Below, piece by piece: positions 3,001 to 17,993 of a stretch of 64,000 nucleotides of DNA (its first letter is position 1; the number at the start of each line of letters is the position of its first letter). The notes below the pieces were generated by a model, which worked only from the letters and a program-made list of their open reading frames with translations, had not been told where the DNA came from and did not search any database. The position numbers and the translations under genes were made by a program. The stretch comes from Solibacillus merdavium. GTDB taxonomy: Bacteria; Bacillota; Bacilli; Bacillales_A; Planococcaceae. The stretch is taken from positions 62,001 to 126,000 of the forward strand of contig NZ_JACSPW010000010.1 in assembly GCF_014836935.1 (NCBI RefSeq). Direction: 5' to 3'.

Positions 3001-3888
3001 ATGAAGAAAATTTTAGTATTAGGTGGAACACGTTTTTTTGGAAGGAAATTAGTAGATTTATTACTGGAGCAAAAGCATGAAGTAACGATTGTAACGCGAG
3101 GGGTTTCTGAAAATCCGTTTGGTGAAGCGGTGGAACATATTAAAGTCGACCGCAAAGAAAAGGCTGCGTTTGAGAAAGCTTTGGAAAATCGCACTTTTGA
3201 TATTGTTTACGATAATATTTGCTATTCACCGAATGAAGCGAAGCAACTATGTGACATGTTTAAAGGAAAAATCGGTAAACTTGTTTTCACCTCTACATTA
3301 GCTACATATGAGGCAGATGGTATGCCCCATGCAGAGGGGGATTTTGACCCAACTTCATATGAAATCGTAATGGGTGATACGCATGAATTTACTTACGGTG
3401 AAGGAAAGCGTTTAGCGGAAGCGGTCTTTTATAGATTTGCCGATTTCCCTGTCGTGGCTGTTCGCTTCCCGATTGTGATGGGTGAGGATGATTATACGCG
3501 CCGCTTGCATTTCCATATTGAGCGCATCGTAAATAATGAGCCGATTGGATTTAGTAATATGGATGCTGAAATGTCGTTCATTCAAGCAACAGAAGCAGCA
3601 AGATTTTTAATGTGGGCAGGAATGGGAAATGTTGAAGGACCGATTAATGCTACGGCGAATGGTGTTATAGCATTAAAAGATTTGATTTCACTTATAGAAG
3701 AAAAAACGGGTGAACGTGCAAAAATAGCACTGCTCGGTACTGAAGAAATCCGTTCACCATATGCAATCCCTGCTTCATGGTATATGAAAAATGATAAATC
3801 ACAGCAACTAGGATTTAAATTTAGTCATATTGATGATTGGTTGCCTCAGTTAGTCGAAGAAATTGCAAAATCTACACCAAAACAGTAA
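3001..3888 (+). CDS. NAD(P)-dependent epimerase/dehydratase-like protein (extended SDR)
   Basis: A 295-residue Rossmann-fold protein of the extended SDR family. The nucleotide-binding glycine motif GGTRFFG is at residues 8-14, and a YxxxK pair is present at Tyr132 and Lys136 (YGEGK). It resembles bacterial proteins annotated as NAD-dependent epimerases and related to the plant CSP41 RNA-binding proteins, for which the substrate is usually unknown. It starts seven bases after the rRNA methyltransferase stop and is probably translated from the same mRNA. No pathway partner is nearby, so the reaction cannot be named. Confidence 0.75.
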   Translation: MKKILVLGGTRFFGRKLVDLLLEQKHEVTIVTRGVSENPFGEAVEHIKVDRKEKAAFEKALENRTFDIVYDNICYSPNEAKQLCDMFKGKIGKLVFTSTLATYEADGMPHAEGDFDPTSYEIVMGDTHEFTYGEGKRLAEAVFYRFADFPVVAVRFPIVMGEDDYTRRLHFHIERIVNNEPIGFSNMDAEMSFIQATEAARFLMWAGMGNVEGPINATANGVIALKDLISLIEEKTGERAKIALLGTEEIRSPYAIPASWYMKNDKSQQLGFKFSHIDDWLPQLVEEIAKSTPKQ

Positions 3889-13552: not shown

Positions 13553-13780
13553 ATGGGGCAAGAGCAACAATCAAAAGAGATGTCAGGGAATAAAATGGTG
13601 AAAATTATCATCGGTATAATTTTAATTGCTTCCATCATTATCGTTGTTGCGATTCAAGCATTCTACATGCTGTGGGAGCCTAAAGAGCCAAAGCAAATTG
13701 AACAACAAAACGAAACTGAGCAGCCAAGCTATTCGAAATCGGCACAAAATTTTTATGAAGAGCTACTTTATTTAGGTTAA
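13553..13780 (+). CDS. Small single-pass membrane protein of unknown function
   Basis: A 75-residue protein with a hydrophilic N-terminus, one membrane segment at about residues 18-40 and a polar, Gln/Glu-rich tail. The ATG 13553 is nine bases after GGGGG; another ATG at 13546 gives only a short frame. It follows the 154-residue unknown gene by 20 bases and precedes a terminator, so both are likely one unit. I see no motif that tells its function. The C-terminal YEELLYLG may be a folded helix. Confidence 0.65.
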   Translation: MGQEQQSKEMSGNKMVKIIIGIILIASIIIVVAIQAFYMLWEPKEPKQIEQQNETEQPSYSKSAQNFYEELLYLG

Positions 13781-13793
13781 TATAGTGAGCTAA

Positions 13794-13829
13794 TCCCTCT
13801 TGTTGTTTATACGACGAGAGGGACTTTTA
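13794..13829 (+). terminator. Terminator after the small membrane protein gene
   Basis: TCCCTCT pairs with AGAGGGA across a 16-base loop and is followed by ACTTTTAA. The T stretch is short, so strength is moderate. Confidence 0.6.
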
Positions 13830-14031
13830 ATAGTAGTCTGCGGTTTTCTAATAAGTAGACTGACGTTTCTAAAATATTTTCAAAATATCTAATATAAGTG
13901 CGGCTTTCTAATATCCAAGCGCGGTGTGCTAATAAGTGTTAGAGATGTTCTAATATAGGCTGTAGGTTTTCTAAAATCATTTCCAGTTGTTCTAATATCC
14001 GTATAGTTTGTTCAAATAAAATCATCCGCCT
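13825..14031. repeat. Degenerate tandem array, ten units of about 21 bp
   Basis: Ten units begin at 13825, 13846, 13867, 13887, 13906, 13927, 13948, 13969, 13990 and 14011. Spacing is 21 bases except for one 20 and one 19. Each unit opens with a version of TTCTAATA (most often TTCTAATAT or TTCTAATAA), followed by 12-13 variable bases that are often G-rich. The array fills the non-coding gap between convergent genes and has stop codons in its conserved core on both strands, so it does not encode a repeat peptide. Function unknown. Confidence 0.75.
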
Positions 14032-14060: not shown

Positions 14061-14098
14061 AAAAAAGCCATCCATCCCGATTAAGAGGATGGATGGCT
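14061..14098 (-). terminator. Terminator of the MMPL gene
   Basis: AGCCATCCATCC pairs with GGATGGATGGCT around an eight-base loop. On the minus strand it is followed by six T residues. Confidence 0.9.
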
Positions 14099-14112: not shown

Positions 14113-16230
14113 CTATTTCGGTCTCGTGTCTTTTCTAAACGGCAGCCACCAGTTCCAATCGCCGAACAGCTTCATGAAACTAGGGACAAGCATGAGTCGG
14201 ATAATTGTTGCATCAATGGCAATAGCTATTGCAATACCGACACCAATTTGTTTAACAGGCATTACATCAGTAAATGCAAATGCGCCAGTAATGACAATCA
14301 TAATGAGTGCCGCTGAAGTAATGATTTTACTTGTTGAGACAAGTCCATCTATTGTTGCCTTTGTATTTGTCGCCCCTTTTAAATATTCCTCTTGAATACG
14401 GGAAATTAAAAATACCTCGTAGTCCATACTTAATCCGAATACTAAACAGAATATAAGAACAGGAACAATCAACACAAGTGTTGTTGCTTCCAAACCGAAA
14501 TGCCCATATTGGAATATGTAGACGAGAATCCCAAACGTTGCACCAAGCCCTAAAATGTTCATGATAATCGCCTTTAATGGAATTAAAATCGATCGGAATG
14601 CCACCATTAAAATAAAGAAAGTTGAAACGATGATAATCGCAATTGCAATAAGTACCTTACTTGCTATTTCATCAAATATTTCCTGGTTGAACTTCGCTTG
14701 ACCAGACAATGCGAAATCAACGCCTAAATCTTTATCCATCCAGTCGCGTACAAAATCCTGTGCTTCTGAAGTTGCACCAGTTGTATTTAAATAGGCCACC
14801 ATATACATTTTATCTTCTTTAATAAAGTTATCAGCAACTTCATCGAGTACTCCCGGCGCTTGTGGGTTACTATTTGCCATTTCCCACATTTCAGCAGATT
14901 CAATATTTGCCACCGTAAACATAGAAGTTACCCGGTCTACCAATGGATCATCTAATAGCTGCTGTTGAATATCGAATATTTTTTCGCGTCCTTCTTTCGT
15001 ATCCCAGTCATCATAGTTTTCAGCAAACAAGAAGACAGGTGTATTTTCAGCTATGCCAAATTCTTCATCCAGTTTATCAAAAGTTTGGCGAGATTCATAA
15101 GAAGTCGGTAATGACTCCGTTGAAGGAATCGTTAACTCAATATCTTTAATCGGTACCATTGCAATGATTAGAAGGATAACGGCAACGAAAATAATAGTGA
15201 TGGGACGCTTCATAACGAAAGCGGCAAATTTTTGCCAACGAGAGGCAGTCGGCTTGATACGGAGAATACGTCCTTTATTTAAACGATCACCGAGCAGAAT
15301 AAGAGTTGCAGGTAAAAGAGTTAGCCCTGTTAATACCGCCAATAGCACAACAATTGTTCCACCCAATGCAATATTCATGAAAATCTCAACATCGATGACA
15401 ACCATAGCACCGAGTCCGATCATGACACAAAGCGCGGAGAATATAATCGAGCGCCCTGCTGTTTGGATGGCGATTTGTACAGATTGTTCAATTGACTGTG
15501 TATTGCGCTCTTCACGATAACGATTTATTAATAATAAAGCAAAATCGATGCTTAACGCCAAACCGAGCATTGGTACAATATTTAATACGAAAATGGATAG
15601 GTTAACTGAATCCCCTAAAAGTGTCAAAATACCGAGAGTCATTACAACAGTTGCACCACCAACAAAAATTGGCAGTAATGAAGCAACAATAGTACCGAAT
15701 GCAAGTAGTAAGACAATCAATGCAATAGGTAAACCAATTGTCTCTGCTTTAATTAAATCATTTTGGCTAGCTAAATTAATATCTTTTGAAATAACAGGTT
15801 CGCCCGTAATGGAAATGCCATTATTTTCTCCAAGCTTTTCCCTCAGTTCGTCAATAATAGGGAAATAATCGACGACTGTATTATCAAATTCTAAAAGACC
15901 GTAAGCAAAATCATTGTTATTTAATTCTTCCACACCTATTGGGGAGGTAATAGTTTGTATTTCCTCGATCGTTTCTAAACTTTCAAGTGCCGAATTGATT
16001 TCTTCTTCGGTTTTATCTTCAAACAATACGAAAATCGTTTTTGCAGGAAGATTGAAAGTTTCGGAAAGTTCATCTGTTACATAAGAATGATCCCCATCAT
16101 AAAAAAATCCATCCCCTTGCAGTTTAGCGGGAAGTTGTAGTGCCAAATAGGCAAGAATGACTAAAAGCGTACACCATATAATAACTATGGGCTTTGCGAA
16201 CTTTGTGACAAATGCTGCGAACTGTTTCAT
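14113..16230 (-). CDS. MMPL/RND-type membrane exporter
   Basis: A 705-residue polytopic membrane protein with two similar halves, each a membrane segment, a large outer loop and then a cluster of about five more segments, twelve in all. Each half has the membrane Asp-containing motif typical of MMPL proteins (SIDFALLLINRYREE and SMDYEVFLISRIQEE), thought to carry protons. Members export lipids, hydrophobic compounds or drugs. AAAGGCGG precedes the ATG at 16230 with a suitable gap. Exporters of this type often have a TetR or MarR neighbour, but none is present here, so the substrate cannot be inferred. Confidence 0.88.
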   Translation of the reverse strand: MKQFAAFVTKFAKPIVIIWCTLLVILAYLALQLPAKLQGDGFFYDGDHSYVTDELSETFNLPAKTIFVLFEDKTEEEINSALESLETIEEIQTITSPIGVEELNNNDFAYGLLEFDNTVVDYFPIIDELREKLGENNGISITGEPVISKDINLASQNDLIKAETIGLPIALIVLLLAFGTIVASLLPIFVGGATVVMTLGILTLLGDSVNLSIFVLNIVPMLGLALSIDFALLLINRYREERNTQSIEQSVQIAIQTAGRSIIFSALCVMIGLGAMVVIDVEIFMNIALGGTIVVLLAVLTGLTLLPATLILLGDRLNKGRILRIKPTASRWQKFAAFVMKRPITIIFVAVILLIIAMVPIKDIELTIPSTESLPTSYESRQTFDKLDEEFGIAENTPVFLFAENYDDWDTKEGREKIFDIQQQLLDDPLVDRVTSMFTVANIESAEMWEMANSNPQAPGVLDEVADNFIKEDKMYMVAYLNTTGATSEAQDFVRDWMDKDLGVDFALSGQAKFNQEIFDEIASKVLIAIAIIIVSTFFILMVAFRSILIPLKAIIMNILGLGATFGILVYIFQYGHFGLEATTLVLIVPVLIFCLVFGLSMDYEVFLISRIQEEYLKGATNTKATIDGLVSTSKIITSAALIMIVITGAFAFTDVMPVKQIGVGIAIAIAIDATIIRLMLVPSFMKLFGDWNWWLPFRKDTRPK

Positions 16231-17372: not shown

Positions 17373-17993
17373 TTACGCGTTACGCATAATGATTGTTTCA
17401 ATTGTGTTTGCCACTGTTTGACAGTAGTCAGCAATTTCTTCTAACTGCTCATAGATGTCTTTAAACTTAATTAAACGAATTGGATCTTTTTCATTTAAAA
17501 ATAATTTTTTTATAGAAGAACGTAATACTTCATCGCATTCGCGCTCATAATCTTTAATTAAAATTGCATGCTGGCGCATACCAACAAGATCCTTTTTGTT
17601 TAATAGCTCCATTGCTTTTACAATTTCATCAGTTGATTTGGCAATATAGGCTAGGAAATTACGCATCGAGTCATCGATTTCTGTTAAAGAGAACATTTCA
17701 AAATGTCCGATTGTGCCTTCTGTTCCATCTAAAACATCATCCATACGGATAGCTAATGACAAAATATCTTCACGCTCGATAGGCGTCATAAATGACTTGT
17801 TAAGCATAACGATCAATTCATGTATTAATTTATCGCCCGCTGTTTCATATTGTTTCATTCGAATACTAATTTCTTTTAAATCTGCAACCGTCTCGATACG
17901 GAAATCATTTGCATAGTGAATGCCTTCACGCATATTTTCAGCAATTTTCAATAATGCCGAGAAAAACGGGTCTTGCTTCTTTGAACTAAACAT
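17373..17993 (-). CDS. DUF47/PhoU-like partner of the Pit transporter
   Basis: A 206-residue all-helical cytoplasmic protein of the DUF47 family, related to PhoU. It carries acidic and metal-binding patches typical of the fold (EREDILSLAIRMDDVLDG at about 107-124, and a YERECDEVLRSS helix near 158-169). Such proteins are encoded with PiT transporters and are thought to gate or regulate them. The start ATG 17993 has a GGAGG-type site upstream (cctcc at 18001-18005 on the plus strand). It is the first gene of the operon; about 200 bases upstream are free of genes. Confidence 0.9.
   Translation of the reverse strand: MFSSKKQDPFFSALLKIAENMREGIHYANDFRIETVADLKEISIRMKQYETAGDKLIHELIVMLNKSFMTPIEREDILSLAIRMDDVLDGTEGTIGHFEMFSLTEIDDSMRNFLAYIAKSTDEIVKAMELLNKKDLVGMRQHAILIKDYERECDEVLRSSIKKLFLNEKDPIRLIKFKDIYEQLEEIADYCQTVANTIETIIMRNA

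Follow-up and report, generated by a model that had tools for sequence, protein, structure and literature searches.

Helically phased arrays of an 8-bp core, putative protein sites, behind genes of Solibacillus merdavium and its relatives

A 64,000-nucleotide stretch of the Solibacillus merdavium genome, here called the window, contains a gap between two convergent genes in which a short AT-rich word recurs about every two turns of the double helix. What is this run of words, and does it do anything as DNA, as RNA or as a peptide? An earlier note, made from the letters of the window, had described ten units with an almost exact 21-bp period in a non-coding gap, and had proposed either curved DNA or a platform for a protein. 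We followed these suggestions through the rest of the genome and through related genomes.

The array in the window and its copies in the same genome

The ten words lie where the earlier note had placed them, each with zero or one mismatch to TTCTAATA, and its account of the setting was correct in every part: the gap is non-coding, its genes converge, and a terminator stands on either side (Table 1). The 21-bp peak survives shuffling, with a lag-21 self-identity of 0.489 over 13825-14031 (z 6.4) that none of 2000 dinucleotide shuffles reached. When the full 64 kb was scanned in 20-base steps at lags of 10 to 59, the most strongly periodic 207-bp segment was the array itself (start 13821, lag 21). 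The genes around the array encode an MMPL protein and two others that have no Pfam match above the cut-off; there is no rep or par gene among the neighbours at this locus (other loci were sampled).

Table 1. Features of the array locus, in positions of the 64,000-nucleotide window.
Feature	Position	Strand	Remarks
Terminator hairpin of upstream gene	13794..13823	+	13 pairs, 6 G-C, loop 4; small gene at 13553-13780; followed by CTTTTAAT
TTTTAATA, unit 1 of the earlier note	13825..13832	+	overlaps terminator tail; probably outside nine-core block
Nine-core block	13846..14018	+	spacings 21, 20, 19, 21, 21, 21, 21, 21
Core 1, TTCTAATA	13846..13853	+	
Core 2, TTCTAAAA	13867..13874	+	
Core 3, ATCTAATA	13887..13894	+	19 bp to core 4 in 22/22 arrays
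Core 4, TTCTAATA	13906..13913	+	
Core 5, TGCTAATA	13927..13934	+	among the tolerant central cores
Core 6, TTCTAATA	13948..13955	+	
Core 7, TTCTAAAA	13969..13976	+	among the tolerant central cores
Core 8, TTCTAATA	13990..13997	+	
Core 9, TTCAAATA	14011..14018	+	
Terminator hairpin of convergent MMPL-family gene	14066..14098	-	13 pairs, 7 G-C; gene at 14113-16230, minus strand

The S. merdavium genome (G000) contains 76 exact core pairs, against 0 in the reversed control. From 26 stretches of this genome together with the window, we recognised 22 nine-core arrays, of which L051 is decayed, along with seven partial chains. Across the copies the spacings run 21/20, 20, 19, 21, 21, 21, 21 and 20/21, with the 19-bp step between cores 3 and 4 in 22/22, the preceding 20-bp step in 20/22, and later steps nearly all 21. 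Because both recur across the 22 copies, the 20 and 19 of the window array, which have the look of decay, are a family signature. The two-turn spacing described earlier thus holds; a plain period of 21 does not, since steps of 20 and 19 are built in. Comparison of the copies also suggests that the word at 13825 is probably not the first unit, as had been supposed, and lies outside the block. The copies are direct repeats of about 20 bp with a conserved core, the feature looked for in iterons and centromeres. Spacer letters vary between arrays, with weak unit-specific preferences, for example in unit 3. At the edge of contig C53, L069 (769-1200) holds a rearranged array with tandem copies, each of about 100 bp, of part of the element.

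Cores and spacing are under purifying selection

We compared orthologous arrays between species. The 15 pairs that join G000 to S. faecavium/G005 differ at 30 of 1048 core bases and at 257 of 1458 spacer bases. Because nearly all of these relatives had been found by one exact triple, three cores of each array can be left out of the count, which gives 30 of 688 (p 9e-20). G005 is probably S. faecavium, to judge from the matching order of its arrays. In 46 pairs between G006 and G008, changes affected 109 of 3312 core bases and 1150 of 4435 spacer bases, and spacer length was identical in 354 of 368 cases. Per base, 3% of core and 18-26% of spacer positions differ between species, an estimate of conservation that is biased upward because pairs were counted where both sides were recognised nine-core arrays and because G000 arrays had trained the model that located the G006 and G008 loci. 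In the flanks (60 bp on each side, 12 of the 15 G000/S. faecavium pairs), 179 of 1224 bases had changed with 38 indel events; inside the arrays the G000 and S. faecavium/G005 alignments contain about seven indels over some 2500 aligned bases. Spacers change slightly faster than the flanking 60 bp (p 0.04), at a rate that resembles that of intergenic DNA close by. We conclude that the cores and the distances between them are under purifying selection and that the spacer letters are near-neutral.

Among 123 nine-core arrays (54 from G006, 49 from G008 and 20 from G000), 105-114 have the exact word at each of cores 1, 3, 4, 8 and 9, and 95 have it at core 2. The central cores are exact less often (core 5 in 60, core 6 in 44, core 7 in 55); their deviations are mostly T2G, T4A/G or T7A and nearly always come singly. 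Single deviations at cores 5, 6 and 7 number 56, 71 and 60, where permutation predicts 43, 58 and 46 (P 0.0016, 0.0008 and 0.0004, with kinship of the arrays uncorrected). We read cores 5-7 as tuned weaker sites.

Distribution, helix-turn ladder and genomic setting

The earlier note had made its reading depend on copies elsewhere in the genome and in close relatives, and the own-genome and relatives searches found the same array in both. Exact core pairs occur in 14 of 41 genomes; G009 and G033 have one match each, which we take as chance because controls reach the same level. Eight of the 16 genomes of the genus are high-copy (G000, G001, G004-G008 and G012, with 61 to 410 exact pairs), G002, G013, G014 and G015 contain 2 to 13, and the remaining four have 0 or 1, three of them none. 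Since the other eight of the 16 thus have at most 13 exact pairs, the high-copy state is dispensable for the genus. We also scanned relatives with a sequence-only model of the 22 arrays, with up to 150 candidates per genome and partial matches counted, and obtained at least 108 matches in G006, 83 in G008, 88 in G001, 98 in G004, 89 in G007 and 55 in G012.

Family-wide, TTCTAATA triples were found in 13 of 261 genomes and 2 of 19 genera, with 0 in reversed controls. A separate scan of genome contigs (93 stretches, many of them single matches in unrelated taxa) gave as named carriers S. faecavium, S. palustris, Ureibacillus manganicus and U. acetophenoni. The two Ureibacillus species carry the same word as Solibacillus in a layout of three 21-bp steps and then 40 bp (40 bp in 29 of 30 gaps, 39 bp in one), which makes a 103-bp super-unit, often in tandem, whose spacers are alike inside one locus and unlike between loci. 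Shortly downstream of the U. acetophenoni array in L128, at ~3150-3300, lies another short repeat (GGTGCCAGGTACACAAACAATTC...). Near-uniform 21-bp tandem arrays with TTCTAATA are also present in an Odoribacteraceae MAG (L087), an Acidobacteria MAG (L160) and Geomonas oryzae (L141); these and other tandem repeats holding the word in unrelated taxa were set aside, by judgement, as unrelated. Plasmids gave no match to three arrays used as query, phages none to the window array, and a search of viral contigs with the neighbour protein gave no relative; a scan of viral sequences for the pattern returned 13 stretches with a single match each.

In a 400-kb sample of two species that lack the array, TTCTAATA chains were absent, but G011 had a 21-bp array of TATGAGC. 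With spacings of 19-22 allowed, TATGAGC pairs stand at 21 bp in 11 of 11 cases in G011, and in G017 at 21 (14 pairs) or 20 (4 pairs). Of the 261 family genomes, 52, from 7 of 19 genera, contain triples at an imposed spacing of 20 or 21, with as many as 580 per genome. Steps in 30 TATGAGC loci are 20 (99) or 21 (68), plus sums of two; because these loci were picked by the 20/21 pattern, only array length past three cores is independent evidence there. Such arrays are seen in L346 (~17580-17660, G011), L405, L406, L407, L409, L412 and others, and in those of G193 two spacers alternate and steps are mostly 20. CGAGTAT, which is TATGAGC backwards and was meant as a control, forms long 21-bp arrays in five genomes, with a single match in a sixth. 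Because this reversed control is itself phased, the class of arrays exceeds one word, and from the common period and intergenic setting we infer that the three words may be one system. The CGAGTAT arrays L425-L454 (G085, G086, G108, G260 and G270) include some that are long and locally homogenised.

Many blocks are accompanied by another. Among the fetched G006 and G008 loci, 54 of 108 blocks of at least eight cores have a second chain, of at least three cores, within 200 bp, most commonly four cores at 21 bp. The distances between blocks form a ladder at about 38, 50, 60, 71, 81 and 92 bp, in steps of about one helix turn, and the inter-block gap lies outside the model with which loci were found. 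The 68 gaps between neighbouring chains in these two genomes fall at 38, 59/61, 70-72, 80-83 and 91/92 bp, with three larger values, and have a best period of 10.48 bp (resultant 0.905); in 30 loci of four further species, 33 gaps fall at 38, 49/50, 60, 71/72, 80-83 and 92. When the two sets are combined and the dominant 80-83 class is set aside, the remaining 42 gaps give a resultant of 0.88 at 10.5 bp, a value reached by 0 of 2000 uniform sets; formal p-values for this phasing are too small, because orthologous loci are not independent. Five gaps in G000 and S. faecavium loci measure 28, 40, 58, 69 and 82 bp, those of 58 and 69 falling between ladder steps; with these included, the 46 gaps outside the 80-83 class give 0.86 and all 106 gaps give 0.90. 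At the window locus the gap is 82 bp in G001, G004, G006 and G007, and 72 bp in G008.

Simple ORF calls placed 130 of the 132 arrays of at least seven cores in G000, G006 and G008. Convergent gaps hold 42, codirectional gaps 79 and divergent gaps 9; the codirectional arrays lie more often against the genes than with them when read by core strand (51 against 28, p 0.013). The convergent share exceeds that of gene pairs in the window (42/130 against 7/59, p 0.004), and the divergent deficit is not significant against the same background (9/130 against 7/59, p 0.27). Terminator-like hairpins read into the array from the left in 45 of 102 cases (13 when shuffled) and from the right in 65 of 102 (20 when shuffled). 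At the window locus, cores lie between the neighbouring genes in all eight high-copy species, with G012 keeping only six relaxed-pattern cores; six other genus genomes with a readable gap have no array there (0 or 1 relaxed-pattern word). G003 and G009 have 0 exact cores at this locus, and in G002, G015 and G011 the gap, read by eye, contains one bidirectional terminator. In G010 (L310) the next gene, read by eye, resembles a phosphate permease and not the MMPL gene.

One site is filled in G006 and G008, where the array stands between a terminator and the next promoter, and is a gap of ~55 bp between matched flanks in G000 and S. faecavium. A flanking gene is in common with a G006 array for 44 of 50 G008 arrays, so array movement must be slow, and with a G008 array for 16 of 25 G000 arrays. 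Array neighbours in Ureibacillus and Solibacillus are mostly unrelated, with only distant paralogues among immediate neighbours and one gap in common. An array lies upstream of rny in L157 (U. manganicus), L219 (G008) and L262 (G006), which could reflect descent, a hot spot or chance; with 21 Ureibacillus array loci, chance alone would, by a rough estimate, yield about one case of this kind. A VOC-family gene adjoins the array on the 5' side in L077 and L078 (S. palustris, G002) and on the 3' side in L192 and L195 (G006, G008). Among the 25 families listed, there was no convincing recurring neighbour protein; two ORF families that do recur, at 36 and 31 loci, are translations of the arrays.

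Array strand does not correspond to the replichores in G006 and G008, with ori and ter placed by local GC skew alone because a Firmicute dif word matched 0 of 5 genomes. The two genomes together have 39 arrays on the plus and 71 on the minus strand, irrespective of local GC skew. Composition flips over the element in the G006 and G008 array flanks, where G makes up 0.33 of the 20 bp that precede core 1 and C makes up 0.29 of the 20 bp that follow core 9. This opposite composition is the one feature seen at the element ends, where inverted ends were sought by eye only.

A phased row of protein sites, its rivals and its nearest known counterparts

The best fit to these observations is a DNA-level array of phased, polar, asymmetric 8-bp sites behind genes, because cores and spacing are held, nearly all frames are stopped, and there is no conserved RNA fold. 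We consider a phased array of protein sites likely, and only a shade less so when the boundary role is attached to it as the leading guess. A putative sequence-specific DNA-binding protein would most likely bind each TTCTAATA core and assemble cooperatively along the helix, one subunit per two turns, into a polar row of nine, with the spacers as passive rulers. In about half of the relatives' copies a second, shorter row would form, separated from the first by an integral number of helix turns. The complex may mark the boundary between neighbouring transcription units, either by blocking read-through or by pinning supercoils, to judge from position alone. Such a boundary role in transcription or supercoiling, with an effect like that proposed for REP-gyrase sites, is suggested by the 3'-end and terminator setting and is possible, if doubtful. 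The binder would, at best guess, be an architectural protein that marks boundaries of topology or transcription.

The two proposals of the earlier note fared differently. The protein platform is supported, and the ladder between blocks, absent from its data, supports it further. Intrinsic curvature is not: in a wedge model, the ratio of end-to-end to contour length is 0.924 for 103 arrays, below that of the same cores put out of phase (0.940) and above that of dinucleotide shuffles (0.915), which leaves room for a tiny bend at most. A repeated peptide had already been dismissed on account of stops in the core on both strands; that conclusion holds, but the argument was incomplete, as one minus-strand frame reads ILE-heptads. 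A remnant of such coiled-coil coding would account for TATTAGAA, which at a 21-bp period spells ILExxxx in one frame, and for the mechanical ORFs of at least 55 aa that cross 70 of 130 arrays. It is scarcely credible all the same, because the 20 and 19 spacings (20/20/19) shift the frame and 129 of 132 frames in the 22 arrays hold a stop (a stop-free frame exists in 2 of 22 arrays, 3 of 132 frames); the core is, moreover, conserved as DNA letters. We would give equally little credit to a neutral satellite decaying from an old tandem duplication, which the locally homogenised tandem copies of Ureibacillus would fit, but in which cores would not evolve 6-8 times more slowly than spacers or hold their spacing. 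An RNA-level element, whose transcript would act as a sponge or regulator through repeated UUCUAAUA or its complement, would suit the adjoining terminators and the liking of RNA-binding proteins for repeated 8-mers. It is very improbable, given that RNAalifold finds no conserved pair in 22 arrays, that Rfam 15 has no match in the window, that the window array lies outside both terminators, and that helix-turn quantisation over 38-92 bp is meaningless for single strands.

Two further alternatives treat the array as DNA. One is a non-autonomous mobile or self-propagating repeat, REP- or MITE-like, that spreads behind terminators and keeps its cores for its own copying. High copy number, the site filled in G006/G008 and empty in G000/S. 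faecavium, local tandem amplification in Ureibacillus, and the mostly unrelated array neighbours of Ureibacillus and Solibacillus, with the one gap in common upstream of rny, all speak for it. We nevertheless judge it quite unlikely: in orthologous copies at fixed positions the cores are retained and the spacers diverge, which implies selection on each resident copy, movement is slow (the 44 of 50 G008 arrays above), the 25 families listed include no evident cargo family, and neither plasmids (three arrays) nor phages (window array) gave a match. The other is a site for condensation, partition or nucleoid anchoring that is independent of the flanking genes, which is suggested by the tens to at least ~100 matches per genome, spread round the chromosome, and by plasmid centromeres, where phased polar site arrays act in partition. 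This too is unlikely, as the arrays have no replichore orientation (one zone, at 2.0-2.6 Mb of G008, looks sparse), and it would not require the preference for gene 3' ends and terminators.

Returning to a phased protein array behind genes, its placement recalls one known class of element and its architecture another. E. coli REPs are gyrase targets, and REP/BIME elements are likewise dispersed, high-copy, intergenic, downstream of genes and mostly in convergent or codirectional gaps (PMC3733652). REPs are palindromic, 20-40 bp long and frequently in opposite orientation, whereas the arrays have non-palindromic, helix-phased 8-bp cores in one direction, with no conserved pair in 22 arrays; the REP-like copy number and position downstream of genes are thus present and the palindromic fold is absent. 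The R6K and P1 iterons are repeats of near 19-22 bp, and pSK41 parC has 20-bp repeats. Plasmid iterons and ParR-parC centromeres resemble the arrays in their direct repeats of about two turns, their short conserved core, the several repeats per block and, here presumptively, cooperative assembly, but each replicon has them at a single locus, next to rep or par genes, whereas the arrays are scattered through the chromosome, with no such gene beside the window array and with unconstrained spacer letters. DNA uptake sequences of Neisseriaceae are single 10-12-bp words, many near terminators, with clade dialects; they share many copies near terminators and words differing by clade, but not phased arrays of fixed order and number. 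STAR, BOX and bcr are dispersed intergenic repeats of Firmicutes and other Gram-positives, and we know of none with helical phasing and neutral fixed-length spacers. Unlike CRISPR arrays, those described here repeat 8-bp cores only, without near-identical repeats, and their spacers are inherited between species. The array lacks a defining feature of each known kind that could be tested (the REP palindrome, the iteron neighbour gene at the window locus, the CRISPR repeat, the coding or RNA repeat), and we would describe it as working like an iteron array sited where REPs are. A literature search, in which subscription journals were thinly covered, found no published description of such arrays, and PMC12306157 contains none of the terms looked for in it.

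If this reading is true, gene ends in these bacteria would be marked by a helically phased protein array, apparently unannotated so far. The arrays would also offer a natural system in which to assay how phased assemblies form cooperatively on DNA, because evolution seems to have tuned their spacing, their number, the distance between blocks and the strength of the cores, those in the centre being weaker. Somewhat short of an even chance, in our estimate, is the wider proposal of a scaffold throughout the Planococcaceae/Caryophanaceae, with up to hundreds of two-turn sites behind genes, bound by architectural proteins, in which the word was switched (TTCTAATA, TATGAGC, CGAGTAT) and the geometry kept. 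A clade switch of the core word at constant geometry would make the co-evolution of a DNA-binding protein with its many sites directly testable, and, as a guess, the arrays may also account for the heptad-repeat open frames in genomes of this family.
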